The notes beneath the pieces were generated by a model. It saw only the letters and a list, made by a program, of their open reading frames with translations. It did no database searches and was not told the origin of the DNA. From Rhodospirillales bacterium (lineage in GTDB: Bacteria > Pseudomonadota > Alphaproteobacteria > Rhodospirillales > WMHbin7): 64,000 nucleotides of DNA. Position 1 is the stretch's first letter. The number at the start of each line of letters is the position of its first letter. Positions 29,914-50,368 of the stretch are shown one piece after another. A program made the translations under genes and the position numbers. The stretch covers positions 1 to 64,000 of the forward strand of contig JACRPC010000006.1 of assembly GCA_016214125.1 (NCBI GenBank), given 5' to 3'.

Positions 29914-30001
29914 CCGCTCGCCTCGTCCTTTCGGCCCATGAACACGTCCCGCCGATGGCCGTCACCAGAAGGCCATTGACGCCCAGGCCATTGGTACATA
30001 C

Positions 30002-30045
30002 GATACGCCTAGTATCATATATCGGGTGGCTTGTCGATTGAAGCC
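30002..30045. promoter_or_regulatory. Candidate operators between tetR and the AMP ligase
   Basis: The gap 29914-30168 has a locally AT-rich stretch holding two inverted repeats. One is GATAC-5-GTATC (30002-30016) and the other is GGCTT-8-AAGCC (30028-30045). The latter's spacer, GTCGATTG, resembles the TTCGATTGA element found at 39.9 and 45.07 kb with one mismatch. No clear promoter for the ligase is seen nearer its start. Confidence 0.45.
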
Positions 30046-30168
30046 TAACGGCGCCATGAGGGGCCATCGATCCGTTCGCAATGGCCACGATCACGCCGCG
30101 TGCTTTGCCGAGTTTGCCTAAGCCGAACGATCGAAAACAAACGTCAACAAAGTCATTGGGGGGACGTC

Positions 30169-31830
30169 ATGCTTGCTGGATGCACTCCTTGGCCCGAGGA
30201 ATTCGCGGCCCGATATCGGCAAAAGGGCTATTGGCTGGGCATTACCCTGCCCGAGATGGTCGAACGGACGGCGGCGCGTTTTCCCGACAAGACGGCGCTC
30301 GTCTACGGCGACCGGCGCCTCACCTACACCGAATTGGTTCGGGCGGTCGACAGTCTGGCCTGCGGTTTTGTTCAGCATGGCTTGAAGCCGCTTGATCGGG
30401 TGGTCCTTCACCTTCCCAACAGCGCCGATTTTGTGATCGTGTTCCTGGGGCTGATCAAGGCCGGGGTCATTCCGGTGATGGCCCTGCCGGCGCACCGTCA
30501 TGGCGAGATCGGTCATTTTATCGCGCACGCCCAGGCGGTGGCCTATCTCATCCCCGATCGGACCAAGGATTTCGACTACCGCGCCATGGCCGCTGAATTG
30601 GCGCCCGCCTCTCCCAGTCTGCGCAAGGTCTTCGTGCTGGGCGAGCCTGGAGCCGGCCAGATCGATCTGCGGGCGATGCTGGCGGCCAAGGTCGAGGCCG
30701 CCCAGGCCGCCACGATTCTGGCGCCCCTTCGGCCCCCGGCCAGCGAGGTTGCGCTGATGCTGCTGTCGGGCGGCACCACCGGAATGCCCAAACTCATTCC
30801 GCGCACCCACGACGATTACGTCTACAATTGCCGGGCCAGCGCCGCCGCCTACAATCTTGACGACAAGACCGTTTATCTGGCGGTGTTGCTGCTGGCCCAC
30901 AATTACACCCTGATCGCGCCCGGCTTTCTCGGCATGATGGCGGTGGGCGGGACCACCGTCATCGCCAGCAACATGACGGCGGAACACGCCTTCGCGCTGA
31001 TCGAACGCGAGCGCGTCACCATGGCTGCATTGGTTCCGCCGCTGGCGATGGCGTGGCTGGCGGCCTGCGACGCCAACCGCCACAATCTGTCGTCGCTCCA
31101 GTTCGCCACCTGCGGCGCCGCCCGGCTTAGTCCGGAAATGCGGGCCGAGTTCGAGGCGCGCATCGGCTGCACCTACATCGAGGAATTCGGCACCGGCGAG
31201 GGCTTTCTCTGCCAGACCCCCCGCAACGCGGCCCTTGAGGTGCGCATGAACGGATCGGGCAAACCGATTTCCGAAGCCGACGAGGTCCGCATCGTCGACG
31301 AGAATGACCACGACGTCGCCGAGGGCGAGCGCGGGGAGATCCTGGCGCGCGGCCCCTACACCATCCGCGGCTACTACAACGCCCCGGCCATCAACGCGTC
31401 GTCCTTCACCGCCGACGGCTTTTACCGCATGGGCGACATGGCGCGCCTTAAGGACGGCACCATCTATGTCGAGGGGCGCAAGAAGGACTTGATCAACCGG
31501 GGCGGGGAGAAGATCAGTTCCGAGGAAGTCGAGGATCTGGTCCGGACCCATCCCGCCATCGCCAACGTCTGCGTCGTCGCCATGCCCGACGATTATTATG
31601 GCGAGAAGGCCTGCGCCTTCGTCATCCTCAAACCGGGCGAACGGCTGGCCTTCTCGGATTTGGTGGCATTTATGGAAAGCACCCGCATCGCCCGCTTCAA
31701 ATTTCCCGAGCGCCTGGAGGTGGTCGAATCGTTTCCGATGAGTCCGGTCGGCAAGATTCTCCGGCACGAATTGCGAAAGACCATCGCCGCCCGTCTGGCC
31801 GAGGAAAAGGCGACAACGGTCGGACGATGA
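30169..31830 (+). CDS. Aryl-acid AMP ligase (EntE/DhbE-like)
   Basis: A 553-residue ANL-superfamily ligase, complete paralogue of the gene at the left edge of the window. The A3 phosphate loop is LLSGGTTGMPKLIPR near 210, the A5 region is EEFGTGEGFLC, the hinge motif is GRKKDLINRGGEKIS near 435, and the catalytic lysine region is GKILRHELRK near the end. It most resembles 2,3-dihydroxybenzoate-AMP ligases, but no siderophore synthetase is nearby. The neighbours are a molybdenum hydroxylase and CoA enzymes, so activation of an aromatic acid for degradation is more likely. The ATG at 30169 follows a GGGGGG ribosome-binding site. Confidence 0.88.
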   Translation: MLAGCTPWPEEFAARYRQKGYWLGITLPEMVERTAARFPDKTALVYGDRRLTYTELVRAVDSLACGFVQHGLKPLDRVVLHLPNSADFVIVFLGLIKAGVIPVMALPAHRHGEIGHFIAHAQAVAYLIPDRTKDFDYRAMAAELAPASPSLRKVFVLGEPGAGQIDLRAMLAAKVEAAQAATILAPLRPPASEVALMLLSGGTTGMPKLIPRTHDDYVYNCRASAAAYNLDDKTVYLAVLLLAHNYTLIAPGFLGMMAVGGTTVIASNMTAEHAFALIERERVTMAALVPPLAMAWLAACDANRHNLSSLQFATCGAARLSPEMRAEFEARIGCTYIEEFGTGEGFLCQTPRNAALEVRMNGSGKPISEADEVRIVDENDHDVAEGERGEILARGPYTIRGYYNAPAINASSFTADGFYRMGDMARLKDGTIYVEGRKKDLINRGGEKISSEEVEDLVRTHPAIANVCVVAMPDDYYGEKACAFVILKPGERLAFSDLVAFMESTRIARFKFPERLEVVESFPMSPVGKILRHELRKTIAARLAEEKATTVGR

Positions 31831-35630: not shown

Positions 35631-35676
35631 TTGTCATCAAGGTTGATGCGTGCAATTATTGCCCGCATCAACCTTG
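35631..35676 (+). promoter_or_regulatory. Nested operator and promoter of the marR gene
   Basis: A perfect 13-base inverted repeat, CAAGGTTGATGCG (35638-35650) and CGCATCAACCTTG (35664-35676), has a 13-base spacer. The spacer region holds the smaller palindrome GCAATTATTGC. The left arm overlaps a second palindrome, ATCAAGGTTGAT (35636-35647), typical of MarR operators. TTGTCA (35631-35636), 17 bases, AATTAT (35654-35659) can serve as promoter, so the repressor would cover it completely. Confidence 0.7.
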
Positions 35677-35691
35677 TTCGGCCCTGGTCCC

Positions 35692-36168: not shown

Positions 36169-36692
36169 TCGGCGTCGATCAGGATGGCGATCAGAAGCGC
36201 CGGCTCGGTGCCGCGATTGATCCAGGCGTGGTTGGTGCCGCGCTGGATCACCACGTCGAAGGGCTTGAGCGTCCGCTCCTCGCCCTCAAGAAGCAGCGTC
36301 ACCTCGCCCGCGAGCACGATGATGTAGTCGATCGTCTTGGTCTTGTGCATCCAGGGGCTGATCGAGGTGTCGGGCCGGGCGGCGTCGGCGCCGTAGGAGG
36401 CGAAGGCGGCGGCGGCGCGCGCCTTGGCGGTTTCGTCGTCGCCGTCGGCCGATTCGGGCGCCACGGCGAAGAACAAGAACTTGCTGCCGCCCGGTTTGGG
36501 GATCAGCTCGAAGGGCAGGTTCACCGGGTCGGCGAAGGCCTGGGAATCGATCGGCCGCGGGTCGGTGTTCCAGACCTCGGTCACCCCGCGCGAGGCCGAC
36601 CCCTTGCGCTTGGCGAGCACCGCATCGTCGAGCACCACCGAGCGCCCCTGGGCGTCGTGGCCGGTGACGATGCGGCGCAACTTGTCGAGCAT
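36156..36692 (-). CDS. Cupin-domain protein
   Basis: A 178-residue protein with one cupin_2 domain in its C-terminal half (IIVLAGEVTLLLEGEERTLK, then IQRGTNHAWINRG). The N-terminal half ends in an FFAVAPES segment, as in cupin proteins of aromatic catabolism clusters. A single His (NHAW) in motif 2 leaves metal binding uncertain. It is the last gene of the minus-strand operon, and its ATG shares one base with the hydratase stop. It may be a small isomerase, decarboxylase or non-catalytic sensor; I cannot choose. Confidence 0.8.
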   Translation of the reverse strand: MLDKLRRIVTGHDAQGRSVVLDDAVLAKRKGSASRGVTEVWNTDPRPIDSQAFADPVNLPFELIPKPGGSKFLFFAVAPESADGDDETAKARAAAAFASYGADAARPDTSISPWMHKTKTIDYIIVLAGEVTLLLEGEERTLKPFDVVIQRGTNHAWINRGTEPALLIAILIDADYSG

Positions 36693-37453
36693 CAACCCTT
36701 CCGGCGATCGAGGAAGGCGTCGATCAGCGCCACCGTCTCCGGGGTGTGCAGCAGGCGATGGTTGGCCATCATCTCGCGGTCGAAGCCGTTGCGGCCGTGA
36801 TCGCCCTGGGCGGCGATGCAGCCCTTGATCTCGGCCAGGGTGTTGACGGGGAAGGTGGCGACGCGCTCGGCAATCGCCCGGGCCTTGGCCGGCAAGTCCG
36901 CCTTCGGCACCGACCATTGCACCATGCCCAGTTGGCGGGCCTCGGCGCCCGAGACCGATTCGCACCCCAAGATGAGGCGCGCCGCGACGCCCGGCCCGCA
37001 CAGCCGGGTCAGCCTTTGCGTGCCGCCGGCGCCCGGCACCTGGCCCAGATTGGCCTCGGGCAGGCCGATCATCGCCTCGTCGGCGGCGATGCGCAGATCG
37101 CCGGAAAGGGCGAGTTCGAAGCCGCCGCCCAAGGCGGCGCCGCCGATTTCGCACAGCACGACCTTGGGCAGGCGGGCGATGCGGAAATTGAGGTTCTGCA
37201 AATCGAGCGTGTCGTCGATCTGGGTCTGGGGCCCGCCGCGCTGGCGCAGATTGTCGCGCATCCAGGCAATGTCGTAACCGGCGCAAAACACTTTGTGGGC
37301 GCTGCGGATGTGCAGAACGCTGATCGCCGGATCGCGCTCGATGGCGTCCAGCACCTGATGGAAGCGGGCCATCCATTCCGGATGGATGGCGTTGACCGGC
37401 GCCCGGTTGAGGGTGGCGATCGCGATTTCGCCTTGGCGCTCGAGATCGATCAT
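36692..37453 (-). CDS. Enoyl-CoA hydratase/isomerase (crotonase family, classical active site)
   Basis: A 253-residue crotonase. Both catalytic glutamates of classical hydratases are present, in GGGFELALS and GLPEANLG, followed by VPGAGGTQRLTRL. The oxyanion-hole segment is VFCAGYDIAW near residue 58. It should add water to a 2-enoyl-CoA. It is coupled by ATGA to the SRPBCC gene upstream and by one shared base to the cupin gene downstream. Confidence 0.92.
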   Translation of the reverse strand: MIDLERQGEIAIATLNRAPVNAIHPEWMARFHQVLDAIERDPAISVLHIRSAHKVFCAGYDIAWMRDNLRQRGGPQTQIDDTLDLQNLNFRIARLPKVVLCEIGGAALGGGFELALSGDLRIAADEAMIGLPEANLGQVPGAGGTQRLTRLCGPGVAARLILGCESVSGAEARQLGMVQWSVPKADLPAKARAIAERVATFPVNTLAEIKGCIAAQGDHGRNGFDREMMANHRLLHTPETVALIDAFLDRRKG

Positions 37454-37857
37454 GGCTCGACGAACCTTTTCAGCGCCTTCAGGCCCGAGCCGTAGATGGC
37501 CTCGGCCAGCTTGGCGACCTTTTCCTCGGGCCCCTTGGGCGTGAAGCGGCCCACCCAGCGCACCTGGCATCCCGAGCCCTTGGGCAGCACGGTCATCGTC
37601 GCTTGGTAATCGGCGAAGGGCATCGGACCCTCGACGATGACGTAGGAAAGCGTCATCGCCGCCTCGTCGCGGAAGACCTCGTCCTCGATGATCAGCTTGC
37701 CGTCGGGCAGATGGACGTGGCGGCGCTTGTTTTGGTTGGCGGCCTCGATGCGGGCGATGCCGGGCAGCCATTGGCCGACCCCGCAGAAATCGCGCACCAC
37801 GGCCCAGATCGTGTCGGCCGGGGATTGGAATTCGCCGGTCACGGTTACTTCGGTCAT
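37450..37857 (-). CDS. SRPBCC (START/polyketide cyclase-like) family protein
   Basis: A 135-residue SRPBCC-fold protein. The opening TVTGEFQSPADTIWAVVRDF and central YVIVEGPMPFADYQATMTV are typical of the polyketide-cyclase/dehydrase-2 group, which bind hydrophobic ligands in a deep pocket. No catalytic motif can be defined. Position inside the CoA-transferase/SDR/hydratase operon suggests it binds or transforms a cyclic intermediate. Confidence 0.82.
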   Translation of the reverse strand: MTEVTVTGEFQSPADTIWAVVRDFCGVGQWLPGIARIEAANQNKRRHVHLPDGKLIIEDEVFRDEAAMTLSYVIVEGPMPFADYQATMTVLPKGSGCQVRWVGRFTPKGPEEKVAKLAEAIYGSGLKALKRFVEP

Positions 37858-37889: not shown

Positions 37890-38672
37890 TTACTGGGCGG
37901 AAAGCCCGCCATCGAGAATGATTTCGGTGCCGGTGATGAAGCGCGATTCCGGCCCGGCCAGAAACAGGATGGCGTAGGCGACGTCAAGCGGCTCGCCGAT
38001 GATGCCCAGGGGAATCTGGCGGCCCAGCTTGGCGTAGGCCTCGTCCTCGCCGAAGCGCCGAACATGGTCGGCCAGGATCGGCGTTTTGACGAAGGCCGGA
38101 TGCACCGAATTGCAGCGGATGTTGTATTCCTGCTTGGCGCAATGCAGCGCCACCGATTTCGACAGATGGCGCACCGCCGCCTTGGCCGAATTGTAGGCGG
38201 CCAGATTGTGACCGGCGACGATGCCGGCCACCGAGGAGACGTTGACGATGGCGCCGCCGCCGCTTTGGGCGATCCGGGGCACGGCGTGCTTGCAGCCCAG
38301 AAAGACGCTGTCGAGATCGATGCGGTGCACCTTCTGCCAGAAGGCGTAGTCGATCTCCTCGATCGAGCCGCGCCCGGGAATGCCGGCGTTGTTGACCAGG
38401 ATGGTCAGCCCGCCGAAGCGCGCCGCCACGGCGTCCAGGGCGGACTGCCATTGCGCCTCGAGGGCGACGTCGTGGGCGAGGGCCAGCGCCTGGCCGGGAT
38501 GTTTGGCCTCGATCGCGGCCGCCGTCTCTTGCGCCGCCGCGAGATCGACATCGGTGGCCGCCACCTTGGCGCCTTCTTCGGCGAAGAGCAGGGCGGTGGC
38601 CCGCCCGATCCCCGAGCCGGCGCCGGTGATCAAGGCGATCTGGTTGGCAAGTCTTGGCGCACCCATACTCAC
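37890..38672 (-). CDS. Short-chain dehydrogenase/reductase
   Basis: A classical SDR of about 260 residues oxidising or reducing a hydroxyl/keto group with NAD(P). The nucleotide motif is TGAGSGIG near 16, the NNAG motif near 93, the catalytic Ser in VNVSSVAG, and the YNSAK pair near 160. The GTG start at 38672 overlaps the CoA-transferase stop (GTGA); an ATG two codons later (38666) is an alternative. Asp in AATDVD after beta-2 favours NAD over NADP. It would act on the hydroxyacyl intermediate made by the neighbouring hydratase. Confidence 0.92.
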
Positions 38673-39853
38673 ACCACCTTCTTGTCGCGCAGCGTTGCGA
38701 TCGCGGCCGCATCATAGCCGAGTTCGGCCAGAATGGCGTCGGTGTGCTCGCCCAGCGTGGGCGGGCGGGCGCGAATGCGGCCCGGCGTGCGCGACAGGCG
38801 CACCGGCACGTTGGGCACCGGCGCCGGCTTGGGCAGGCCCGGATACTCGATCGGTTTAAGAAACTGCGCCGCCACCGCTTGCGGATCGTCGATCGCCTGC
38901 TGCGGCGACAGGATCGGCGCCGCCGGCAGGCCGGCCTTCTCCAGTTCCGCCAGCGCCTGGGCGGCGTGGCGCTGGCCGCACCAAAGGGCCATGCGTTCGC
39001 TTAAAACCGAGCCATGATCGCCGCGGCCCTGATCGTCCTTGAAGCGCGGATCGTCCAGCCATTGCGGCTCGCCGATCAGCTTGGTCCAGCGGCGAAACAG
39101 CGGATCGCCCACCGTCATCACGGTGATCCATCCGTCTTTGCACTTGAACACATCGGCGGGGCCGGTCTGCTGGCTACGGCTGCCCTGGGCGATGCGGTTG
39201 GGCGCCCGCACCCCTTGCTCGATCAGATAGGTGCCGAGGAAGGAAAGGCCGGTGGCCATCAGGGCGCCCTCGACCATCTGGCCCTGGCCGGATTTCTGCC
39301 GCTCCATCAGGGCGGCCATGACGCCGAAGGCCAGGAACATGGCGGTGCCGTAATCGGAATAGGTGGCCATGGCGCGCTGCGGCCGGTCTTGGGTGCCGGT
39401 GAGATACATGGCGCCCGACATCGCCTGGCCGATGGCGTCGAAGCCCAGCTTGTGGGCGTAGGGGCCGGTGCTGCCAAAGGCGGTGGCGAGCGCCAGGATG
39501 ATGTCGGGCTTTTCCGCTTTCAACGAATCGTAATCGAGCCCCATCGACGCCAAAGCCGGGGCCGGCATGTTGACGACCACGACGTCGGCGGTGCGCACGA
39601 GGCGGCGCACGATCTCGCGGCCCTCGGGGGTCATCGGATCAAGGGTGAGGCCGCGCTTGTTGCGGCTCATGGCGAGAAACATGGCGCCGTCGCCCGCCTC
39701 GCCCACCGGCACCAGGAAGCGGTCTTCGCCGCCGCCCACCCGTTCGATGCGGATGACGTCGGCGCCGAAATCGCCCAGCAGGGTGGCGCAATAGGGGCCG
39801 GCCACGTAGCGGCCGAAATCGAGCACCCGGATGCCGGCCAGAACGTCGGACAC
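38669..39853 (-). CDS. Class III (CaiB/BaiF) CoA-transferase
   Basis: A 394-residue family III CoA-transferase that moves CoA between carboxylic acids, probably from a CoA-ester product to the incoming acid. The catalytic aspartate is Asp167 in YSDYGTAMF, matching the Asp of formyl-CoA transferase. The N-terminal [20 protein letters not shown] is typical. The GTG start is preceded by a GGGGGG stretch. It is first gene of the minus-strand operon and is driven by the divergent promoter with the TTCGATTGACA element. Confidence 0.93.
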
Positions 39854-39883: not shown

Positions 39884-39966
39884 ATCTTATTTTCCGCCGC
39901 CCGCCCTTGTCAATCGAAGTGCCGCCACCCGCTTCGATTGACAACAATTCGATATGAAACTATACC
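39884..39966. promoter_or_regulatory. Divergent promoters sharing a palindromic operator
   Basis: A perfect 13-base inverted repeat, TTGTCAATCGAAG (39907-39919) and CTTCGATTGACAA (39932-39944), is separated by 12 bases. Each arm contains a consensus -35. Plus strand: TTGACA (39938-39943), 17 bases, TATACC (39961-39966), towards the crotonase. Minus strand: TTGACA (39913-39908), 18 bases, TAAGAT (39889-39884), towards the CoA-transferase. A dimeric regulator on this site would switch both operons together. The same TTCGATTGAC core recurs at 45065-45074. Confidence 0.8.
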
Positions 39967-39978
39967 CAGAACGAGCGA

Positions 39979-40104
39979 GGCGCCTCCTCGCGTAGGGTCG
40001 GCCGCAAGGCGGCCGCGCGCCGCATGGCGCGGGAGCCAAGCGAGCGGAGGCGAGCGCCCGGCGATTGAGGGCCTAATAAAGAATCACGACACCGTTGGGT
40101 GTCG
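39979..40104 (+). promoter_or_regulatory. Branched, structured leader RNA of the crotonase operon
   Basis: The predicted leader (about 39973-40131) can fold into a closing helix with two internal hairpins. The closing helix pairs GGCGC (39979-39983) with GCGCC (40054-40058), CTCC with GGAG, and TCGC with GCGA. Inside it are CGGCCGC/GCGGCCG (39999-40015) and CGCGCC/GGCGCG (40016-40031). A separate hairpin, CGACACC/GGTGTCG (40087-40104), sits just before the ribosome-binding site. The pairing is read by eye; I do not recognise a known riboswitch class. Confidence 0.45.
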
Positions 40105-40131
40105 GAAACCCAAAGACAGGGAGGGTGCGTC

Positions 40132-40959
40132 ATGTCCGTCTTCAAGGAAGTCCAGGCCGCCACATGGAAACCCCAGCATTTCCTGTGGAAGGTCGAGAAC
40201 AAGGTGGCGACCGTCACCATCAATCGGCCGGAAAAGAAAAACCCCTTGAGCTTCCAAAGCTACGGCGAATTGCGCGACACCTTCCGCGAATTGCAATACG
40301 CCACCGACGTCAAGGCGGTGGTGATCACCGGCGCCGGGGGCAATTTCTGCTCGGGCGGCGACGTGCACGAGATCATCGGTCCCCTCTTGCAGATGAAGAT
40401 GCCCGAGATCATCGCCTTCAACCGCATGGCCGGCGATCTGGTGCGCGCCATGCGCAACTGCCCGCAGCCGATCGTGGCGGCGATCGACGGCGTTTGCGCC
40501 GGCGCCGGCGCCATTCTGGCGATGTCGTCCGATCTGCGCTACGGCACGGCGCGCTCCAAGGTGGCGTTCCTCTTTGCCCGCGTCGGCCTGCCCGGCTGCG
40601 ACATGGGCGCCTGCGCCCTTCTGCCGCGCATCATCGGCCATGGCCGGGCTTCGGAATTGCTCTATCGCGGCCGGGCGATCGGCGGCGAGGAGGCGCTGCG
40701 CATCGGCTTCTACAACGAGCTGATGGAGCCGGAACGGGTTCTGGCCGGCGCCAGCGAGGTGGCGGCGGAACTGGCCAACGGTCCCTCCTTCGCCCACGGC
40801 GTCACCAAGCGCATGCTGCACAAGGAATGGGACATGGGCCTGGACGAGGCGATCGAATCCGAGGGCCAGGCGATGGCGATCAGCATGTTCACCGGCGATT
40901 ACCGGCGCGCCTACGAGGCCTTCATCAACAAGAAGACACCGAAATTCGAAGGCGATTGA
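40132..40959 (+). CDS. Crotonase-family protein lacking both classical catalytic glutamates
   Basis: A 275-residue crotonase-fold enzyme acting on a CoA thioester. The CoA-binding and oxyanion-hole features are present ([41 protein letters not shown]). The two hydratase glutamates are replaced, the first by Ile in GAGAILAM and the second by Phe in [12 protein letters not shown]. An aspartate in [14 protein letters not shown] aligns with the position of the nucleophilic Asp of 4-chlorobenzoyl-CoA dehalogenase, but that enzyme's His and Trp are not evident. GGGAGGG precedes the ATG. It is first gene of an operon with two aryl-CoA ligases. Confidence 0.88.
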
Positions 40960-40984
40960 TCGGCCCCGGAAGAGGTCCTCATTT

Positions 40985-40993
40985 TCAATCGAA
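40985..40993. promoter_or_regulatory. Single TCAATCGAA site before the first ligase
   Basis: This nine-base core, identical to the half-site of the divergent operator at 39910-39918, lies in the 72-base gap between the crotonase and ligase genes. No matching -10 is seen in either direction, so it may be an accessory binding site rather than a promoter. Confidence 0.4.
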
Positions 40994-41031
40994 CCGGGCG
41001 CCCAAGCCCGGGCGGCAAGGGAGCGACAGGC

Positions 41032-42630
41032 ATGGCCGGCAGGCGCGATCCGCGAGGCGGACCCCAGGGGAACTGCGTCGATTATCTGTTCGAACACGCG
41101 CTGGAGCCCCAAAACCGCAACCGGGTCTATCTCCGGCTTGATGACGGCGCCGTCACCTTCGAGGAGCAGCATCGGCGCGTCTGCCAGGCCGGCCATTATC
41201 TGAAATCGATCGGGCTCAAACCCGGCGAGCGGATGCTGATGAGCGTCATGGACGGCAAGGATTTCGTCGCCCTCTTCCTGGGCGCCTTGAAGATCGGCGT
41301 CGTTGCCGTGCCCTTAAGCACCTTCCAGAAGGCCAAGGATTACCGGCACAATCTGAACGACAGCGGCGCGGCGGCGATCTTCGTCGATCGCAGTTTGGCC
41401 GGGACCATCGCCGAAATCCGCCCCGAGGTGAAGGCCTGCCGCCATTGGGGCGTGCTGGGCGGCAGCGCACCCGGCTTCGTGCCCTTCGAACCCGGCGCCG
41501 ACGCCCAGCCGGAAACGCTGGAGACGCGTCCCTGTTCGGCCGACGAGGTCGCCTTCTGGCTCTACAGCTCGGGCTCGACCGGGGCGCCCAAGGGCGTGGT
41601 GCACACCCACGCCCACATCTACTGGGCGACCGAGCTGACCGGCATCGGCGCCTTGGGCATCAACAAGGACGACGTCGTGTCCTGCCCGCCCAAGATGTTC
41701 TTCGCCCTTGGCCTGGGCGGCGAGGTCTATATGCCGCTGCGCGCCTGCGCCGAAACGCTGGTCAGCCCCACCGCCATCACGCCCCCGCGGGTGTGGGCGC
41801 AATGGATCAAGAACCGGCCAACCGTCACCATGGTGGTGCCGACGCTGTGCAGCGGCATGCTGCAACTGGCCGAAAAGGAATTCGGCCAAGCGGTGGCGCG
41901 CCAGGCTTGCGGGCGCCTGCGCTTCGCCTTCTCCTCGGGCGAGGTCTTGCCGCCCACCCTGATGCATCGCTGGCACGATTACACCGGCGTCGAATGCCTG
42001 AACGGCTTCGGCACCACCGAAATGACCCACATGTTCATCTTCAACCGGCCCGGCCATCCGGTCGAGCATAGCTGCGGGCGCATCGTCGAGGGCTATCGCT
42101 ACGAGATCCTCGATCCCCAGGGCAACCGGGTGCCGGTGGGCGAGGTCGGCAACCTGCATGTCTACGGCCCCACCTCGGCGGTCGAATATTGGAACAACCC
42201 CGAGAAGACCGCGATCGTGATGGGCAAGGGCGGCGTGCTCACCGGCGACATGGTCTATGAGGACAAGGAGGGCAATCTGTTCATGGCCGGGCGCTCCGAC
42301 GACATGCTGCGGGTCGGCGCCATCTGGGTTTCGCCGGCCGAGGTCGAAGGCGCCCTGGTCACCCATCCGGCGGTGCTGGAGGCCGCCGTGATCGGCGCCC
42401 CCGACGAGGGCGGGCTTACCAAGCCCAGGGCCTATGTGACGCTGCGCGACCCCGTCGATCCGGCCCACTGGCCGGCGCTGGAGGCGGAATTGAAGAAACA
42501 TGTGCATGGCCAATTGCCGGCCTTCAAGACTCCGCACCGCATCGAGGCGATGGAAGAACTGCCGAAGACCGCAACCGGCAAGATCCAACGGTTCCGTCTT
42601 CGCGCGCTGGCCCTCGAAACGGGCGCTTGA
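41032..42630 (+). CDS. Benzoate-CoA ligase family protein, copy 1
   Basis: A 532-residue acyl/aryl-CoA synthetase making a CoA thioester from a carboxylic acid and ATP. Motifs are YSSGSTGAPKGVVHTHAH near 180, FGTTEMTH near 325, the hinge GRSDDMLRVGAIWVSPAEVEG near 420, and the catalytic lysine in TATGKIQRFRLR near the end. The closest recognised relatives are benzoate- and 4-hydroxybenzoate-CoA ligases. A tandem copy of identical length follows 93 bases later, sharing the unusual opening RDPxGxPQGNCVDYLFExAL. AAGGGAG precedes the ATG. Confidence 0.92.
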   Translation: MAGRRDPRGGPQGNCVDYLFEHALEPQNRNRVYLRLDDGAVTFEEQHRRVCQAGHYLKSIGLKPGERMLMSVMDGKDFVALFLGALKIGVVAVPLSTFQKAKDYRHNLNDSGAAAIFVDRSLAGTIAEIRPEVKACRHWGVLGGSAPGFVPFEPGADAQPETLETRPCSADEVAFWLYSSGSTGAPKGVVHTHAHIYWATELTGIGALGINKDDVVSCPPKMFFALGLGGEVYMPLRACAETLVSPTAITPPRVWAQWIKNRPTVTMVVPTLCSGMLQLAEKEFGQAVARQACGRLRFAFSSGEVLPPTLMHRWHDYTGVECLNGFGTTEMTHMFIFNRPGHPVEHSCGRIVEGYRYEILDPQGNRVPVGEVGNLHVYGPTSAVEYWNNPEKTAIVMGKGGVLTGDMVYEDKEGNLFMAGRSDDMLRVGAIWVSPAEVEGALVTHPAVLEAAVIGAPDEGGLTKPRAYVTLRDPVDPAHWPALEAELKKHVHGQLPAFKTPHRIEAMEELPKTATGKIQRFRLRALALETGA

Positions 42631-42723
42631 TCGCCGCCGCGTCCTTCCCTACACTTGTGTCAAATTTCGTGCGCGGACGTCGTTGGGGCGTCAAAGGACC
42701 GCGCCGGCACAGGGGAGGATAGG

Positions 42724-44322
42724 ATGGCCAACGAACGCGATCCCAAGGGCGCGCCGCAAGGCAATTGCGTCGATTATCTGTTCGAGCGGGCGCTCAGGCC
42801 CGAGAACCGCAACCGGGTTTTCCTCAGGCTCGATGACGGCGCCGTCACCTTCGATCAGCAATACCGGCGGGTCTGCCAGGTCGGCCATTACCTGAAGGCG
42901 ATCGGCTTGAAGCCGGGCGAGCGCATGCTGATGGCGGTGATGGACGGGCCCGATTTCGTCGCCCTGTTCCTGGGCGCCATGAAGGTGGGGGTGGTGGTCA
43001 TTCCGCTTTCCACCTACCAGAATCCCAAGGATTACCTGCACAATCTGAACGACAGCGCCGCCGCCGCCCTGTTCGTCGATCACAGCCTGGTCGGCGCCAT
43101 CGATCAGATCCGTCCCCAGGCCAAGAGCTGCCGCTTCTGGGGCGTCTTGGGCGGCAAGGCGCCGGGCTACGAGGCTTTCGAGCCGGCGGTGGCCGGCCTG
43201 CCCGAGGAGTTGGAAACCCGGGCCTGCGGCGCCGACGAGATCGCCTATTGGCAATACAGTTCCGGCTCGACCGGCGCGCCCAAGGGCGTTCTTCACACCC
43301 ACGCCCATCTTTATTGGGCGACCGAACTGGGCGGCATCGGCACGCTCGGCATCCACCGCGACGACGTCATCACCTGTCCGCCCAAGATGTTCTTCGCCTT
43401 CGGGCTGGGCGGCGAAATCTATTTCCCGCTTCGGGTGGCCGCCGAAACCCTGGTCAGCGCCACCCCGATCACCCCCAAGCGGGTGTGGGAGCAATGGATC
43501 AAGAACCGGCCCACCGTTTCGATGGCGGTGCCGACGCTCTACAACGGCATGCTGCAATACGCCGAAAAGGAATTGGGCCAAGAGGTGGCGCGCCAGGCCT
43601 GCGCCCGCATGCGCTTCGTGCTGTCGGCGGGCGAAATCCTGCCGCCGTCCCTCATGCATCGCTGGAAGGACTACACCGGCATCGAATGCCTGGACGGCGT
43701 CGGCACCACCGAGATGACGCATGTCTTCCTGATGAACCGGCCTGGCCATCCGATCGAGCAAAGCTGCGGTCGCATCAGCGACGGCTACCGTTACGAAATC
43801 CTCGATTCCGAAGGCAAGCCGGTGAAGAAGGGCGAGACCGGCAATTTGCATGTCTACGGCCCCTCGGCGGCCACCCAATATTGGAACAATCCGGAAAAGA
43901 CCAAGCAGGTGATGGGCCGAGGCGGCGTGCTCACCGGCGACATGGTCTATGAGGACAACGAAGGCAATCTCTACATGGTCGGGCGCTCCGACGACATGCT
44001 GCGCGTCGGCGCCATCTGGGTTTCGCCGGCCGAGGTCGAGGGGTCGCTGGTCACCCATGCCGCCGTGCTCGAGGCCGCGGTGATCGGCGCCGCCGACGCC
44101 GAGGGCCTCACCAAGCCGATGGCCTACGTCACCCTGCGCGAGCCGGCCCAGCACCCGGACCGCAAGGCCCTGGAGGCCGAATTGCAGGCGCACGTCCACA
44201 AGACCCTGCCCAGCTTCAAGGTGCCGCGCAAGATCGCCTTTATGGATGAGCTGCCGAAGACGGCGACCGGCAAGATCCAGCGCTTCCGCCTGCGCGGTCT
44301 GGCGGCGGGATCGGGGTCGTAA
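42724..44322 (+). CDS. Benzoate-CoA ligase family protein, copy 2
   Basis: A 532-residue paralogue of the preceding ligase. Corresponding motifs are YSSGSTGAPKGVLHTHAH, VGTTEMTH, the same hinge, and TATGKIQRFRLR. Differences cluster in the N-terminal substrate-binding part (for example LSTYQNPKDYLHN against LSTFQKAKDYRHN), as expected for divergence of acid specificity after duplication. GGGGAGG lies just before the ATG at 42724. The short gap to the TetR gene (20 bases) suggests one transcript. Confidence 0.92.
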   Translation: MANERDPKGAPQGNCVDYLFERALRPENRNRVFLRLDDGAVTFDQQYRRVCQVGHYLKAIGLKPGERMLMAVMDGPDFVALFLGAMKVGVVVIPLSTYQNPKDYLHNLNDSAAAALFVDHSLVGAIDQIRPQAKSCRFWGVLGGKAPGYEAFEPAVAGLPEELETRACGADEIAYWQYSSGSTGAPKGVLHTHAHLYWATELGGIGTLGIHRDDVITCPPKMFFAFGLGGEIYFPLRVAAETLVSATPITPKRVWEQWIKNRPTVSMAVPTLYNGMLQYAEKELGQEVARQACARMRFVLSAGEILPPSLMHRWKDYTGIECLDGVGTTEMTHVFLMNRPGHPIEQSCGRISDGYRYEILDSEGKPVKKGETGNLHVYGPSAATQYWNNPEKTKQVMGRGGVLTGDMVYEDNEGNLYMVGRSDDMLRVGAIWVSPAEVEGSLVTHAAVLEAAVIGAADAEGLTKPMAYVTLREPAQHPDRKALEAELQAHVHKTLPSFKVPRKIAFMDELPKTATGKIQRFRLRGLAAGSGS

Positions 44323-44342
44323 GGCGGGCCTGGGCCCGGCCG

Positions 44343-45152
44343 ATGACCAAGCGCACCCGCAAGGGCGAAATCTTCCGCGCCGCCATCATCGACGCGGCGG
44401 CACGGTTGTTCATCGAGCGCGGTTTCCTCGGCACCAACATCCAAGACGTGGCGAACGCGCTGGGCGTGACGCGCACCGCCGTCTATTACTACTTCAAGAA
44501 CAAGGGGGCGATCCTCGACGCGATCACCGAGGACACCACCTTCGCCGCCAAGACGATGGCGGCGCGGCTGTCGGCCGATCGCGGGCGCGATCCCACTCAG
44601 GCGCTGCGCGGCCTGATGGCCCAGCAAATCGATCTCATTCTTGCCAGCCCGATGCGCTTTCGGGTCTCCGACCGCGACGCCGTCAACCTCTCGCCCAAGA
44701 AGTGGGCCGAGGTGCGGGCGGCCTGGCGCGGCATTCTGGAAAGCTTCACCCAAGTGATCGAGCGCGGCGTCGCCCAAGGCCAGTTCGACGTCGTCAACGC
44801 CCGCGTCGCCGCTTTCGCCGTCCTCGGCATGTGCAATTGGACGGCGCGCTGGTACAAGCCGGGTGGCGGGCTCGGCACTTCCGACATCATCGCCATGATG
44901 ACCGACATGGCGCTCAAGGCCGTGCGGCGACCGGGGGCCTCGCACCCGGCCGCGCCCAGCCTGGCCGACCGTTTCCGTCTCTTGCACGCCGACGTCAACG
45001 CCCTCGAACGGTTGTTGACGGCGGGCGGCGATTCCACCGCGCCTCGGCCGATCCGCCCGGCGGGTTCGATTGACGCAGGCGTGAAAAAGTCGTCTAATCT
45101 GACGAACAAACGACAACGTCCACGCACACCACGACAACAGGGGGAGACATGA
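44343..45152 (+). CDS. TetR-family regulator with long C-terminal tail
   Basis: A 269-residue regulator, longer than the usual 190-220. The N-terminal DNA-binding domain (about 10-60, IQDVANALGVTRTAVYYYFKNKG) is clear. The ligand domain ends near residue 200, followed by a tail rich in Ser, Arg, Lys and Gln without recognisable domain. The stop overlaps the binding-protein ATG (ATGA at 45149-45152). The DNA of the tail carries the importer promoter and a TTCGATTGAC site, so this protein is the nearest candidate to bind that element. An aryl-CoA ligand is plausible but unproven. Confidence 0.88.
   Translation: MTKRTRKGEIFRAAIIDAAARLFIERGFLGTNIQDVANALGVTRTAVYYYFKNKGAILDAITEDTTFAAKTMAARLSADRGRDPTQALRGLMAQQIDLILASPMRFRVSDRDAVNLSPKKWAEVRAAWRGILESFTQVIERGVAQGQFDVVNARVAAFAVLGMCNWTARWYKPGGGLGTSDIIAMMTDMALKAVRRPGASHPAAPSLADRFRLLHADVNALERLLTAGGDSTAPRPIRPAGSIDAGVKKSSNLTNKRQRPRTPRQQGET
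45065..45098 (+). promoter_or_regulatory. Importer-2 promoter overlapping a TTCGATTGAC operator element
   Basis: TTGACG (45070-45075), a 17-base spacer, and TCTAAT (45093-45098) form a strong sigma-70-type promoter inside the 3' end of the TetR gene. The element TTCGATTGAC (45065-45074) overlaps the -35 exactly as at 39933-39942. It would give the binding-protein mRNA a leader of about 45 bases. Confidence 0.7.
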
Positions 45153-46324
45153 TCCGGAAATCGTTTTGGGCCGCGTTGGCGGCCGCGACGCTCGTCACCA
45201 CCGGCGGCGCTTTGGCGCAGCAGGGCCCGGTGAAGATCGGCTTCGTCACCACGCTCACCACGCCGTCCGGCTATATCGGCGAGGAGACGCGCGACGGCTT
45301 CACCATCGCCATGGACCAGGAAGGCGGCAACAAGCTGGGCGGCGTCGCCGTCGAGCTGATGATCGCCGATGACGGCGTCAAGCCCGACGTCGCCAAGCAA
45401 CTCGTCGAACGGATGATGCAGAAGGATGGCGCCAAGATCATCTCGGGCGTCATCTTTTCCAACATCGTCGCCGCGGTGGCGCCCGACGTCGTCAAGGCCG
45501 GCGGCTTCTATGTCGGTCCCAACGGCGCCCCCAACAACATGGCCGGCGCCGATTGCCATCCCAACTATTTCATCGCCTCGTGGCAGGCCGGCACCCAAAG
45601 CGACATGGCCGGCCTGTTGGCCGACAAGATCAAGGCCAACAACGTGGTGCTGGTGGCGCCCGACTATGTGGCGGGCAAGGACCAGATCGCCGGCTTCAAG
45701 CGCTACTTCAAGGGCACCATCTCCGGCGAGATTCTCACCAAGCTGGGCCAGACCGACTACGCCGCCGAGATTACCCGCATCCGTTCGCTCAAGCCCGACG
45801 CGGTCTTCTTCTTCCTGCCGGGCGGCATGGGGGTGAGCTTCATCAAGCAGGTCAAGGAATCCGGCCTGCAGAACACGGCGCTCTTGGCGCCCCTGACGGT
45901 CGATGACCGCATCGTCGAATCCTTGGGCGACAAGGCGATGGGCATTCGCAGCACCACCTTCTGGAACTGGGATTACGACAACGCGGCGAGCAAGAAGTTC
46001 GTCGAAGACTTCAAGAAGAAGCATGGCAGGGTGCCCACCACCTACGCCGCCCAGGGCTACGACACGGCCCGGCTGATTGCCAGCGCGCTCAAGGCGGTGG
46101 GCGGCGACGTCTCCAAGACGGACGCCTTCCGCGCCGCCCTCAAGAAAGCCGATTTCGTCTCCATCCGCGGTTCCTTCAAATTCGCCAACAACAACCATCC
46201 GATCCAAACCTGGCACGCCCGCGACGTGGTGAAGAACGCCGACGGCACCTACGCCACCAAGACGGCCGAACTGCTGTTCAAGGATTACAAGGATCCCTAT
46301 TCGGCCGAGTGCAAGCAGCCCTAG
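45149..46324 (+). CDS. Periplasmic substrate-binding protein (importer 2)
   Basis: A 391-residue type I periplasmic binding protein. The signal peptide MIRKSFWAALAAATLVTTGG ends at ALA near 24. The mature sequence begins VKIGFVTTLTTPSGYIGEE, and the second-domain segment LVAPDYVAGKDQIAGFKRYF is typical. It resembles binding proteins beside aromatic-acid clusters (the PF13458 group), and its placement after two aryl-CoA ligases supports an aromatic or alicyclic acid as ligand. GGGGAG precedes the ATG. A strong hairpin follows before the permease genes. Confidence 0.92.
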   Translation: MIRKSFWAALAAATLVTTGGALAQQGPVKIGFVTTLTTPSGYIGEETRDGFTIAMDQEGGNKLGGVAVELMIADDGVKPDVAKQLVERMMQKDGAKIISGVIFSNIVAAVAPDVVKAGGFYVGPNGAPNNMAGADCHPNYFIASWQAGTQSDMAGLLADKIKANNVVLVAPDYVAGKDQIAGFKRYFKGTISGEILTKLGQTDYAAEITRIRSLKPDAVFFFLPGGMGVSFIKQVKESGLQNTALLAPLTVDDRIVESLGDKAMGIRSTTFWNWDYDNAASKKFVEDFKKKHGRVPTTYAAQGYDTARLIASALKAVGGDVSKTDAFRAALKKADFVSIRGSFKFANNNHPIQTWHARDVVKNADGTYATKTAELLFKDYKDPYSAECKQP

Positions 46325-46404: not shown

Positions 46405-47325
46405 ATGGATTTCGCCCTCTTTGCCGAGCAGATACTGAACGGGCTGCAAGCCGGGGTGACCCTGTTCCTCACCGCCGCCGGCTTGACGCTCGTCTTCGGC
46501 ATCGTCGGCTTCATCAATCTCAATCACGGCACCCTGGTGATGGCCGGGGCCTACATCGCCGCCAAGATCGCTACCGTCACCGGCTCCTTCTGGCTGGGCC
46601 TTGCGGTGGCGGTGCCGTCGGTGGTCGTCCTCGGCCTGCTCTTGGAAACCTCGGTCTTTCGCCGCCTTTATCACCGCGACCATCTCGATCAGGTGCTGGC
46701 CACCTTTTCCCTCATCCTCTTCTTCAACGAACTGGCCCGCATTGTCTTCGGCCGCCTGCCCTATCAGATCGACAAGCCGGCGCTGCTGGCGGGCGCCGTC
46801 CATCTGTTCGGCGATCTCTATTACCCGATCTACCGCTTGGCGGTGATCGGGGTCGGCGTCGCGGTGGCGATCGGGCTTTGGTATCTCACCGCCAAGACCA
46901 AGCTCGGCATGTTGATCCGCGCCGGCTCGACGCATCGCAACCTGGTGGGCGCCTTGGGAGTCAATGTCGGCCGCCTGTTCCTGGCGATCTTCGCCTTAGG
47001 CGCGCTGTTGGCCGGCTTGGCCGGGGCGATCATCGGCCCGATGCAGGCGGTCGAGGTCGGCATGGGCGAGAACATCATCATCCTCGCCCTGGTGGTGATC
47101 GTCATCGGCGGCGTCGGCTCGATCCGCGGCGCCCTGGTGGCCTCGGTCTTCGTCGGCATCGCCGAATCGCTGGGCCGCACCCTGGTCCCTTATCTGTTCG
47201 AGAAGGTGGTCGACACCTCGACGGTGACCTTCCTGAGCGGCATGTTCGCCTCGACCAGCGCCTATGTGATCCTGGCCGCCGTGCTGATCGTTCGGCCCCA
47301 GGGCCTGTTTGCGGGCAAGGTCTAA
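46405..47325 (+). CDS. LivH-like permease (importer 2)
   Basis: A 306-residue membrane subunit. LivH hallmarks are TAAGLTLVFGIVGFINLNHG near 25 and the coupling segment IRAGSTHRNLVGALGVNVGR near 170. It is followed three bases later by the LivM-like gene. Importer-1 subunits at 7710-8615 are distant paralogues, so the two importers are not recent duplicates. Confidence 0.93.
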   Translation: MDFALFAEQILNGLQAGVTLFLTAAGLTLVFGIVGFINLNHGTLVMAGAYIAAKIATVTGSFWLGLAVAVPSVVVLGLLLETSVFRRLYHRDHLDQVLATFSLILFFNELARIVFGRLPYQIDKPALLAGAVHLFGDLYYPIYRLAVIGVGVAVAIGLWYLTAKTKLGMLIRAGSTHRNLVGALGVNVGRLFLAIFALGALLAGLAGAIIGPMQAVEVGMGENIIILALVVIVIGGVGSIRGALVASVFVGIAESLGRTLVPYLFEKVVDTSTVTFLSGMFASTSAYVILAAVLIVRPQGLFAGKV

Positions 47326-47328
47326 GGC

Positions 47329-48324
47329 ATGACGTTCTGGCCGCCGTCGCGCCCGACCCTGATCGTCCTCATCGGGGCCGTCCTGTTGCTGCTCTTGCCG
47401 CCGATCGCCGAGGCGCTACGCCAACCCTTCGTCATCTCGGTCGCCACCCGGGTGGTGATCCTGGCCTTGGTGACGGTGAGTCTCGATCTTCTGATCGGCT
47501 TCGGCGGCATGGTGAGTTTGGGCCACGCCGCCTTCTTCGGCGCCGGCGCCTACGCCACCGCGCTGCTCACCCAATTGGCAGCGGCCGGCAAGCCGCTGGT
47601 CTGGGGCTGGGTGCCGCCGGTCGAGGGCCTGGCGGTGTGGACGATCGCCATTGTCGTCGCCGCCCTGTTCGGTCTGGTGATCGGCGCCTTGGCGCTGCGC
47701 ACCAGCGGCTTCAACTTCATCATGATCACGCTTGCCTTCGCCCAGATGGTGCTCTTCCTGGCGTCGCTGCGCGAACTGGGCGGCGACGACGGCTTGCGCA
47801 TTCCGGTGCGCAACACGGTCGTCGGGTTTTCCATCGAAAGCCAGACCGCCCTTTATTACGTCAGTCTGGTGGCGCTGGCGCTTTACCTGTTCTTGTGCGA
47901 CCGCATCGTCCATTCGCGCTTCGGCTTGGTCCTGCAGGCGATCGCCCAGAATCCCCGGCGCGCCCACGCGCTCGGCTATCGCGTCTATTCCTACCGGTTG
48001 GTGACCTTCGTCATCGGCGCCGCCGGCGCCGGCTTGGCCGGGGCGCTGATCGCCAACCACGCCCGCTATGTCAGCCCCGACCTCTTGATGTGGACCCGCT
48101 CGGCGGAAATCATGATCATGGTCATCCTGGGCGGCAAGGGCACGCTTTTTGGCGCGGTGCTGGGGGCGGCGGTGCTGCTCTTGCTCGAGGAGTTCCTGAT
48201 CGGCCTGACCGAGCATTGGCAGGTGATCCTGGGCCCGATCCTCTTGGTGGTGGTGCTGACGGCCCGGCGCGGCCTGTTCGGGCTATTGGCCGGGTCGAGG
48301 GGCGGCGGAGGCGGGCATGGCTAG
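47329..48324 (+). CDS. LivM-like permease (importer 2)
   Basis: A 331-residue membrane protein. It carries LIGFGGMVSLGHAAFFGAGA near 50 and the coupling region QAIAQNPRRAHALGYRVYSY near 205, and ends in a Gly/Arg-rich tail. Its stop overlaps the LivG-like start by eight bases. Confidence 0.93.
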   Translation: MTFWPPSRPTLIVLIGAVLLLLLPPIAEALRQPFVISVATRVVILALVTVSLDLLIGFGGMVSLGHAAFFGAGAYATALLTQLAAAGKPLVWGWVPPVEGLAVWTIAIVVAALFGLVIGALALRTSGFNFIMITLAFAQMVLFLASLRELGGDDGLRIPVRNTVVGFSIESQTALYYVSLVALALYLFLCDRIVHSRFGLVLQAIAQNPRRAHALGYRVYSYRLVTFVIGAAGAGLAGALIANHARYVSPDLLMWTRSAEIMIMVILGGKGTLFGAVLGAAVLLLLEEFLIGLTEHWQVILGPILLVVVLTARRGLFGLLAGSRGGGGGHG

Positions 48325-49064
48325 GCCGCTGCTGGTCATCGAGGATTTGAACAAATCCTTCGGCGCTCTCAAGGTCACCGATCAGTTGAACGTCGAGGTC
48401 GAGGAAGGCGAATGCCACGCGCTCATCGGCCCCAACGGTGCCGGCAAGACGACGCTGATCGGCCAGTTGATGGGCGAGTTGAAGCCCAATCGCGGCCGCA
48501 TTCTTTTCGACGGTCACGACATCACCGGCCTGTCGCAGGCGCGCCGGGTCGAGCTTGGCATCGCGCGCTCCTTCCAGATCACCTCGGTCTTTCTCGATTT
48601 CACCGCGCAGGACAACGTCATCCTCGCCGCCCAGGCGGCGCAGGATCATAATTTCCGTTTCTGGGGCCGGGCGCGCCGCCACCCCGATCTGCGCGCCGCC
48701 AGCCAACGCTATCTCGATCGGGTCGGTCTGGGGGCGGCGGCCCAATCGCGCGCCGCCGATCTGGCGCACGGCGCGTTGCGCCAGCTCGAACTGGCGATGG
48801 CCCTAGCGCTGGAGCCCAAACTCCTGCTGCTCGACGAGCCGATGGCCGGCATGAGCGTCCAGGAATCGCGGACCATGACCGATCTCTTGAAATCGCTGGC
48901 CGGCACCAAGACCATGCTGCTGATCGAGCACGACATGGACGCCGTCTTCCGCCTGGCCGACCGCATCACCGTGCTGATCGGCGGCCGGGCGCTGGCCACC
49001 GACCGGCCGGACGCGATCCGCTCGAACCAAGACGTTCGCACCGCCTATCTGGGAGAGGGCGACC

Positions 49065-49078
<14 letters not shown>
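48317..49078 (+). CDS. LivG-like ABC transporter ATPase (importer 2)
   Basis: A 253-residue ATPase. Walker A is GPNGAGKT near residue 37, the signature region is LAHGALRQLELAMAL, Walker B is LLLLDEPMAGM, and the H-loop is LLIEHDMD. It powers importer 2 together with the LivF-like subunit, whose start overlaps its end by 14 bases. Confidence 0.94.
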
Positions 49079-49766
<688 letters not shown>

Positions 49767-49957: not shown

Positions 49958-50368
49958 CTAATCCTTGGCCGGCTGGAAGATTTCCACCTGCACGCCGTTC
50001 AGCGATTTCGGATGGATGAAGTTGACGGCGCCGAAATCGCCCGCCACCGTTTCCGGCAGCACGAACTGCATGCCCTTGGCCTTCAAGGCCGGCACGTCCT
50101 GGTCGATGGCGTCGACGGCGACCGATAGCAGGAACACGCCCTCGCCCTTGCGTTCCAGGAAGCCGGCGACCGAGGTGTTGGGCTGGGTCGAGGCGATCAG
50201 GTTGATGTGAAAGCCCTTGATGTCGAGGGTGGCGCCGATCAGCCCCGGAAAGGCGAAATCGCCTTCGCCCAGGGGCGTCGCCTTGACGCCGAACAGGCCT
50301 TCATAGGTCTTGGTCGCCGCCGCCAAATCCTTGACCGCGATGTTCATGCCGTAGATGCCGGTGATCAT
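49958..50368 (-). CDS. VOC-family protein, methylmalonyl-CoA-epimerase-like
   Basis: A 136-residue vicinal-oxygen-chelate protein. The sequence starts ITGIYGMNIAVKDLAAATKT, has a central GFHINLIAS with a possible His ligand, and ends in HPKSLNGVQVEIFQP, a pattern seen in methylmalonyl-CoA epimerases and their relatives. The N-terminal His of true epimerases is replaced here by Asn (MNIAV), so epimerase activity is doubtful. It is a stand-alone gene facing the importer. Confidence 0.78.
   Translation of the reverse strand: MITGIYGMNIAVKDLAAATKTYEGLFGVKATPLGEGDFAFPGLIGATLDIKGFHINLIASTQPNTSVAGFLERKGEGVFLLSVAVDAIDQDVPALKAKGMQFVLPETVAGDFGAVNFIHPKSLNGVQVEIFQPAKD

Follow-up and report, generated by a model that had tools for sequence, protein, structure and literature searches.

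The 13-mer TTGTCRATYGAAG and its core TCAATCGA are concentrated in the non-coding DNA of one gene cluster of the 64,000-nt window that we analyzed (contig JACRPC010000006.1, GCA_016214125.1, positions 1 to 64,000), where the element lies over three good -35 candidates and probably also over a weak promoter of a second TetR gene. Judged from its letters and setting, it is probably a repressor docking site, a gene switch of a kind usual in bacteria. We lean towards reading it as the operator of one local repressor, most likely the TetR-family protein encoded at 44343, in an aryl-CoA catabolic island (Table 1). The letters and coordinates that the original prediction gave for the elements were all right, including those of a fourth core at 40985-40993.

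Table 1. Predicted regulatory features and genes of the island (positions in the window).
Feature	Position	Strand	Remarks
Candidate operator, perfect 13-nt inverted repeat TTGTCAATCGAAG-N12-CTTCGATTGACAA	39907..39944	.	covers both divergent -35 boxes
Promoter candidate, crotonase/ligase/ligase/TetR operon, TTGACA-17-TATACC	39938..39966	+	sequence
Promoter candidate, CoA-transferase operon, TTGACA-18-TAAGAT	39884..39913	-	promoter search
Promoter candidate, importer, TTCGATTGACG on -35, TTGACG-17-TCTAAT	45065..45098	+	sequence; TetR frame tail non-coding-like
Additional site TTGTCGATTGAAG	30031..30043	+	divergent region, second TetR gene/first ligase
Fourth core TCAATCGAA	40985..40993	+	crotonase-ligase gap; function doubtful
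Palindromes before MarR gene (likely start 35692): CATCAAGGTTGATG, exact; CATCAACCTTGTTC, two mismatches	35635..35679	+	
Palindrome ATACGATAC-GCCTA-GTATCATAT before second TetR gene (29248-29913, minus)	29998..30020	.	
TetR-family regulator (TetR_N + TetR_C_24), candidate binder	44343..45152	+	coding signature ends near 45060
Crotonase/enoyl-CoA hydratase family, PRK08258 type	40132..40959	+	
Benzoate-CoA ligase family protein 1	41032..42630	+	
Benzoate-CoA ligase family protein 2	42724..44322	+	74% identity to ligase 1
CoA-transferase family III	38669..39853	-	first gene of divergent operon
Short-chain dehydrogenase	37890..38672	-	divergent operon
Second enoyl-CoA hydratase	36692..37462	-	divergent operon; start approximate
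Periplasmic binding protein, urea/branched-chain-type ABC importer	45149..46324	+	3' of the 45065 promoter candidate
Importer permeases and ATPases, four genes	46405..49766	+	

A perfect 13-base inverted repeat with TTGACA as the -35 hexamer on both sides had been proposed for 39907-39944 and is indeed present. Its arms, TTGTCAATCGAAG (39907-39919) and CTTCGATTGACAA (39932-39944), stand 12 nt apart, are 100% complementary and put TTCGATTGACA over the -35 box of each of two divergent promoters. On the plus strand, TTGACA (39938-39943) is followed after 17 nt by TATACC (39961-39966), and on the minus strand TTGACA (39913-39908) is followed after 18 nt by TAAGAT. By manual count, both promoters, like that of the importer, match the consensus at 10 of 12 positions; a stricter promoter search, which yielded 3 promoter-like sites in 10.9 kb where 1.2 were expected, lists only the minus-strand promoter among the three. 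Perfect 13-nt arms separated by no more than 30 nt occur twice in the window, here and before the MarR gene, vs. a mean of 0.3 in 60 order-4 Markov simulations, and arms with at least six A/T were seen in 0 of the 60. The 39907-39944 palindrome occurs at one place in its own genome, which argues against its being part of a mobile repeat, as a dispersed repeat of ~75 nt just downstream (39998-40071) might suggest. A hairpin acting as terminator or attenuator is the related reading, and the RNA of 39900-39975 does fold well (-21.9 kcal/mol, z -6.0); however, no T run follows the repeat, the flanking genes on both sides are directed away from it, and the hairpin, sitting at the -35 position, would be left out of transcripts from both promoter candidates. 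We regard both of these explanations as very improbable.

The importer promoter was likewise found as predicted, with TTGAC inside its -35 box: TTCGATTGACG (45065-45075) contributes TTGACG, followed after 17 nt by TCTAAT (45093-45098), and the site equals TTGTCRATYGAAG at 10 of 13 letters. A paralogous fragment of the importer gene on contig 40 (88% DNA identity) resembles it only downstream of the promoter. The expectation that all sites are intergenic or at a gene end held in part, since the importer site falls inside the open TetR frame (44343-45152), although the coding signature is gone from the final 90 nt of this frame (GC3 0.43, codon score -1.22, vs. GC3 of 0.77-0.97 and codon scores of about 0 or above in its earlier stretches). 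The copy at 30031, a site absent from the original prediction, overlaps a weak -35 box on the minus strand, recognized by eye (TTCAAT-17-TATGAT). An inverted partner within 45 nt, allowing one mismatch, was found neither there nor at 45065. No promoter was seen at the fourth core, which may be accidental.

The core TCAATCGA has five copies in the window, four intergenic and one within the non-coding-like end of the TetR frame; the 3.99-Mb genome has 58. All five lie in the cluster's 1.8-kb non-coding set, of which it is the commonest 8-mer; this set was drawn by hand with the sites already known and takes in the final 110 nt of the TetR frame as well as ~250 nt that probably belong to a minus-strand gene (49958-50206). 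In only 3 of 1000 order-2 Markov sequences did any 8-mer with three or more A/T reach five copies. When the whole genome was scanned, with the contig-6 array treated as one event and the genome as a single line, five copies within 15 kb gave p ~0.003, or p 0.05 with the inverted repeat counted once. The 13-mer TTGTCRATYGAAG, chosen after the sites were known, has three exact genomic copies, each in one of two divergent intergenic regions of the island, and is therefore cleaner than the 10-mer TTCGATTGAC, which is not diagnostic alone because 7 of the 10 others among its 13 genome copies lie in likely coding frames. The original interpretation is partly supported, in that the exact element is concentrated in the cluster's non-coding DNA, whereas the candidate regulon is weakly supported, on the evidence of one genome.

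These figures also bear on a simpler account, to which we give little credence, whereby promoter letters and chance, without a dedicated binder, brought TTCGA in front of TTGAC at three good -35 boxes. The -35 consensus itself supplies 6 of the 13 arm letters, the 10-mer and the higher of the two genome-wide p values fit such an account, and looser matches are at chance level in the window, with no excess of TTCGATTGAC at up to one mismatch (7 vs. 3.96 expected) or of TTGTCRATYGAAG at up to three (33 vs. 35.7). Against it, TTCGA precedes TTGAC in 3 of 9 cases in the non-coding set vs. 0 of 105 elsewhere (Fisher p 3.5e-4, although two of the three are arms of one repeat and so not independent), the exact 13-mer copies all fall in one island, and the 30031 copy is not over a strong -35 box. 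The exact element is thus unlikely to be a chance word.

The TetR protein encoded at 44343, with matches to TetR_N (1.5e-16) and TetR_C_24 (3.7e-27), is our best guess for the binder by gene position and elimination, since its predicted operon begins at the repeat and different palindromes stand before the genes of the other two local regulators. Its gene is the fourth frame past the repeat on the plus strand, and the importer gene begins where the TetR frame ends. The palindromes before the MarR gene and the one before the second TetR gene are each the probable own operator of the regulator concerned. Alternatively, the element could be a real operator bound by the MarR protein (35692), the second TetR protein (29248) or an unlinked regulator, which we consider rather unlikely. 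The layout resembles that of the MarR-type regulator BadR, the letters TCAA/TTGA are common to the MarR palindrome and the core, and the 30031 site lies within the second TetR gene's own promoter region. However, both regulators have a separate palindrome at their own start, the TCAA-N2-TTGA spacing of the MarR palindrome is unlike that of TCAATCGA, and the BadR operator CAATnnATTG is absent from the sites, with no exact copy in the window and none of its eight one-mismatch copies at a site.

If the TetR protein encoded at 44343 is indeed the repressor, the two TTGTCRATYGAAG copies that face each other at 39907-39944, one per divergent -35 box, would let bound protein obstruct RNA polymerase at the CoA-transferase operon as well as at the crotonase/ligase/ligase/TetR operon, so that TetR would repress its own operon. 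The single copies would block the importer promoter (45065) and, probably, the second-TetR/first-ligase region (30031). With 24-25 bp between their centers, the arms are too widely spaced for a single TetR dimer, so each is best taken as a dimer site of its own. The inducer that releases the repressor would presumably be an aryl-CoA thioester or an aromatic acid that the island produces or takes up. More tentatively, we can picture an almost-orphan TetR protein whose word TTGTCRATYGAAG coincides with the -35 box and which, as dimers or dimer pairs, might jointly set four units of the 15-kb island, its frame spanning the importer promoter that it would control. The units in this doubtful extension could be the ligase with a hydroxybenzoyl-CoA-reductase-like enzyme, the CoA-transferase, the crotonase/ligases, and the importer.

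Relatives were searched in overlapping samples of order, class and phylum genomes. The 39907-39944 palindrome was found in 0 of 288 other class genomes searched. The TetR protein encoded at 44343 is nearly an orphan: it had no further match at E <= 1e-40 in 248 order genomes (own included), one match, of 35% identity, at E <= 1e-35 in 385 class genomes (own included), and none at E <= 1e-30 in 294 phylum genomes (own included). The crotonase is common (62 of the 385 class genomes, own included), and no TetR match lay beside it in the 44 crotonase loci compared, which are part of the matches, mainly the best-ranked, and include one own-genome paralogue and one locus chosen for its TetR. Most of these loci have the order short-chain dehydrogenase, crotonase, acyl-CoA dehydrogenase, ligase, and we take such loci to be probably of the salicylyl/2-aminobenzoyl-CoA type. 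Relatives of the ligase pair at 54-55% identity occur in 2 of 384 other class genomes, both of one other genus (G600 and G523), where TTGACGTAAACGTAAA, a TTGAC-containing element that we take to resemble LiuR-type sites, stands before the ligase homologue instead of the island's word; since it differs in sequence, regulation does not appear to be common to the two. No orthologue of the pair was found in four other family genomes (best 40%), and ligase 1 had no plasmid match at E <= 1e-100. The large searches scored the top few candidates per genome, so relatives may have been missed. Conservation of the element before orthologous genes was not seen, but because close orthologues of the operon were not found in the sampled relatives, this negative carries little weight.

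If the favored reading is true, the island, a multi-operon aromatic-acid cluster that has a pair of similar CoA ligases and three regulators, would come with a ready, testable operator, each of the three regulators would be assigned its own distinct palindrome, and a large regulator family would gain one operator more; to our knowledge, most binding words of the TetR family are unknown. The general picture of gene control would be unchanged.

Searches of the open-licence literature, by title and start of abstract, returned no description of TTGTCRATYGAAG and no fitting operator for TTCGATTGAC or TCAATCGA, and no TetR operator with an inverted repeat was found there for a benzoate-CoA ligase. 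The layout has a parallel in BadR of Aromatoleum sp. CIB, whose predicted operators in the bad-ali system lie over the two -35 boxes of divergent promoters, at least one of which has been shown to be bound (PMC9795900). Here, too, the -35 boxes of two divergent catabolic promoters are both covered, a likeness of layout only, and a repressor recognizing the first CoA thioester would be a further one; yet BadR, as described there, is of MarR type with the operator CAATnnATTG, whereas the local candidate is a TetR protein. The TetR-type MbdR of Azoarcus sp. CIB (mbd system) acts at several promoters, including that of a CoA-ligase gene and its own, has 3-methylbenzoyl-CoA as inducer and recognizes ATACN10GTAT (PMC4424350). 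The shared trait would be one TetR protein serving several promoters of an aromatic CoA-ligase cluster, among them its own, in some cases via the -35 region, and the MbdR PDB entry matches the TetR protein encoded at 44343 (E 6e-6, residues 12-66 only) and is absent from the 54 matches of the second TetR protein. The reported MbdR operator is, however, not TTGTCRATYGAAG, and the only exact ATACN10GTAT copy in the window (29998-30015) lies before the second TetR gene, not at the element. TetR proteins of the QacR type, named for a multidrug regulator, bind as paired dimers on one long operator, and dimer pairs of this kind would account for 13-nt arms with centers 24-25 bp apart.

Re-reading of the sequence confirmed the letters, coordinates and spacings in the original prediction for the copies of a short element in an apparent aryl-CoA catabolic gene cluster (the island). 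The central inverted repeat has perfectly complementary 13-nt arms, 12 nt apart, and paired well when folded as RNA. The fourth core, in the crotonase-ligase gap at 40985-40993, was present as claimed; no promoter was seen when its surroundings were inspected, and its sole inverted partner, 33 bp off and with one mismatch, is formed by the crotonase gene's end and has the opposite arrangement. Judging from gene families, the island looks like one for aromatic acid uptake and a CoA-thioester pathway; its two benzoate-CoA-ligase family proteins are 74% alike. A G+C-rich dispersed repeat of ~75 nt lies in the crotonase leader (39998-40071), and among the stretches compared has three tandem copies on contig 2 (L166, 1541-1801) and one on contig 34 (L174, 2221-2302).

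Features of the island and of its candidate control sites
Feature	Position	Strand	Sequence or content
Inverted repeat	39907-39944		between divergent CoA-transferase and crotonase/ligase/ligase/TetR operons
Promoter candidate at repeat		+	TTGACA-17 nt-TATACC
Promoter candidate at repeat		-	TTGACA-18 nt-TAAGAT
Importer promoter candidate		+	TTGACG-17 nt-TCTAAT
Additional site	30031-30043		between second TetR gene (29248-29913, minus) and aryl-acid ligase gene
Aryl-acid ligase gene	30100-31830 (frame); start probably at 30169		genes for two molybdenum-hydroxylase subunits come next
Palindrome by second TetR gene	29998-30020		ATACGATAC-GCCTA-GTATCATAT, between second TetR and first ligase
Palindrome at MarR gene start	35635; 35666		CATCAAGGTTGATG, exact; second copy, two mismatches
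Island genes		-	CoA-transferase III, short-chain dehydrogenase, enoyl-CoA hydratase, cupin protein
Island genes		+	crotonase, two benzoate-CoA-ligase family proteins, TetR, urea/branched-chain-type ABC importer

All four sites had been placed between genes or at a gene end. The importer site (45065-45075) in fact sits within the open frame of the TetR-family regulator at 44343-45152, TetR(44343), although the last 90 nt of this frame lack a coding signature. Codon score and third-position G+C were sustained to ~45060 and then collapsed (45063-45152: -1.22 per codon, GC3 0.43), and the recognised TetR domain stops at residue 194. Since the signature collapses and the domain ends at that residue, the frame most likely simply continues across the candidate importer promoter. 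The protein as read would have some 30 extra residues, probably meaningless.

Three tests speak against chance, each with weaknesses. Repeats with 13-nt arms and a gap of at most 30 nt numbered two in the window, against 0.3 on average across 60 order-4 Markov simulations, none of which (0/60) gave arms with at least six A/T; the other such repeat (35638-35676) lies ahead of the MarR gene. TTCGA directly precedes TTGAC in three of 114 occurrences on both strands of the window, 3/9 in the non-coding set versus 0/105 elsewhere (p 3.5e-4), two of the three cases being arms of one repeat. The top 8-mer of the non-coding set, TCAATCGA, has five copies there and none in the rest of the window; 3 of 1000 order-2 Markov sequences contained five copies of some 8-mer having three or more A/T. 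Considering its 58 copies in 3,986,285 genomic bases, the scan probability of five copies in 15 kb is ~0.003, or 0.05 with the repeat counted once. Among 25 of the 53 copies outside the window that were inspected, 14 were in likely coding frames and 11 were not, five of the latter forming a single tandem array. On contig 6, 74804-74867 (L188-L192) consists of tandem 14-bp units, each with GTCAATCGA and giving five exact cores; it lies outside any likely coding frame and, read by eye, adjoins the end of an apparent ABC ATPase gene. Looser searches of the window were at chance level for TTCGATTGAC with up to one mismatch (7 vs 3.96 expected), and, with up to three, for TTGTCRATYGAAG (33 vs 35.7) and TTGTCAATCGAAG (13 vs 10.9).

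Genome-wide, the 10-mer is by itself not a good marker: it has 13 copies (none when read backwards), and by open frame and third-position G+C 7 of the 10 outside the cluster are in likely coding frames, leaving C1:61974, C28:43848 and C36:35318. The longer TTGTCRATYGAAG, in which the core's two mirror-image positions are opened, is a much cleaner marker. Its exact copies number three, all in the island, and the 12 with one mismatch are all on other contigs; it was built after the sites were seen, and its score is descriptive.

The original prediction had overlooked a further site, TTGTCGATTGAAG, which is the repeat arm with the core's two mirror positions swapped; with it, the candidate regulon grows from three to four units. 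By eye, a weak minus-strand promoter, TTCAAT-17-TATGAT, has its -35 position within this site. The closest match of the large molybdenum-hydroxylase subunit encoded nearby is 4-hydroxybenzoyl-CoA reductase alpha, under that model's cut-off.

TetR(44343) is the natural candidate binder because its apparent operon begins at the repeat, and it is favoured by elimination because the MarR and second TetR genes have other palindromes. The MarR repeat comprises two CATCAA-N2-TTGATG-like palindromes with centres 31 bp apart, of which one is exact and the other has two mismatches; they surround a candidate promoter for the MarR gene, which probably starts at 35692, and 35635-35679 is a strong candidate for MarR's own operator. 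The palindrome by the second TetR gene contains an exact ATACN10GTAT at 29998-30015, overlapped by another copy that differs at one position; ATACN10GTAT is the published MbdR operator (PMC4424350). In a search of solved structures, MbdR (4uds) matched TetR(44343) at E 6e-6 across residues 12-66 only, and was absent from the match list of the second TetR, so that this operator match cuts both ways. In a 152-residue alignment, TetR(44343) and the second TetR are 24% alike. From gene position and elimination, a reasoned guess, we lean slightly towards TetR(44343) as binder of the candidate operator.

Conservation ahead of orthologues in relatives, the original prediction's own test, could not be passed: the palindrome pattern occurred in one of 289 genomes, this one, which is the only member of its genus among them. 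TetR(44343) is nearly an orphan in the sampled genomes, and the closest ligase homologues, which come from two genomes belonging to a single other genus, are preceded by TTGACGTAAACGTAAA. Ahead of these homologues, the two genomes (L153, L154) share ATGTTGACGTAAACGTAAAA, in a region ~88% alike overall, so that the sharing alone is no sign of selection. We take ATGTTGACGTAAACGTAAAA to resemble a LiuR-type site, and it is perhaps the operator of another regulator. Contig 40 of the island's own genome carries relatives of parts of the island (~177259-180395, L162): an importer-gene copy with 88% DNA identity beginning at 45111, the match stopping after 115 of 391 residues and leaving the promoter outside; a second binding protein (38%); and, where the contig ends, a ligase segment that matches the end of the first ligase at 74% DNA identity. 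The conservation results do not refute a local candidate operator, and they make the regulon a one-genome hypothesis.

The element is a locally concentrated candidate operator, with one site added here and a binder that we infer. In the simplest reading, the binder would cover the -35 box and repress. The arm centres are 24-25 bp apart (the 8-mer cores 24), and given TetR protein geometry this spacing makes two dimers, one on each arm, more likely than one. Among published cases, MbdR acts as repressor at several promoters within one cluster, with the first CoA thioester as the releasing ligand (PMC4424350), and in the BadR system two predicted operators each lie on a predicted -35 box of one divergent promoter pair (PMC9795900), a layout like that of the candidate operator here.
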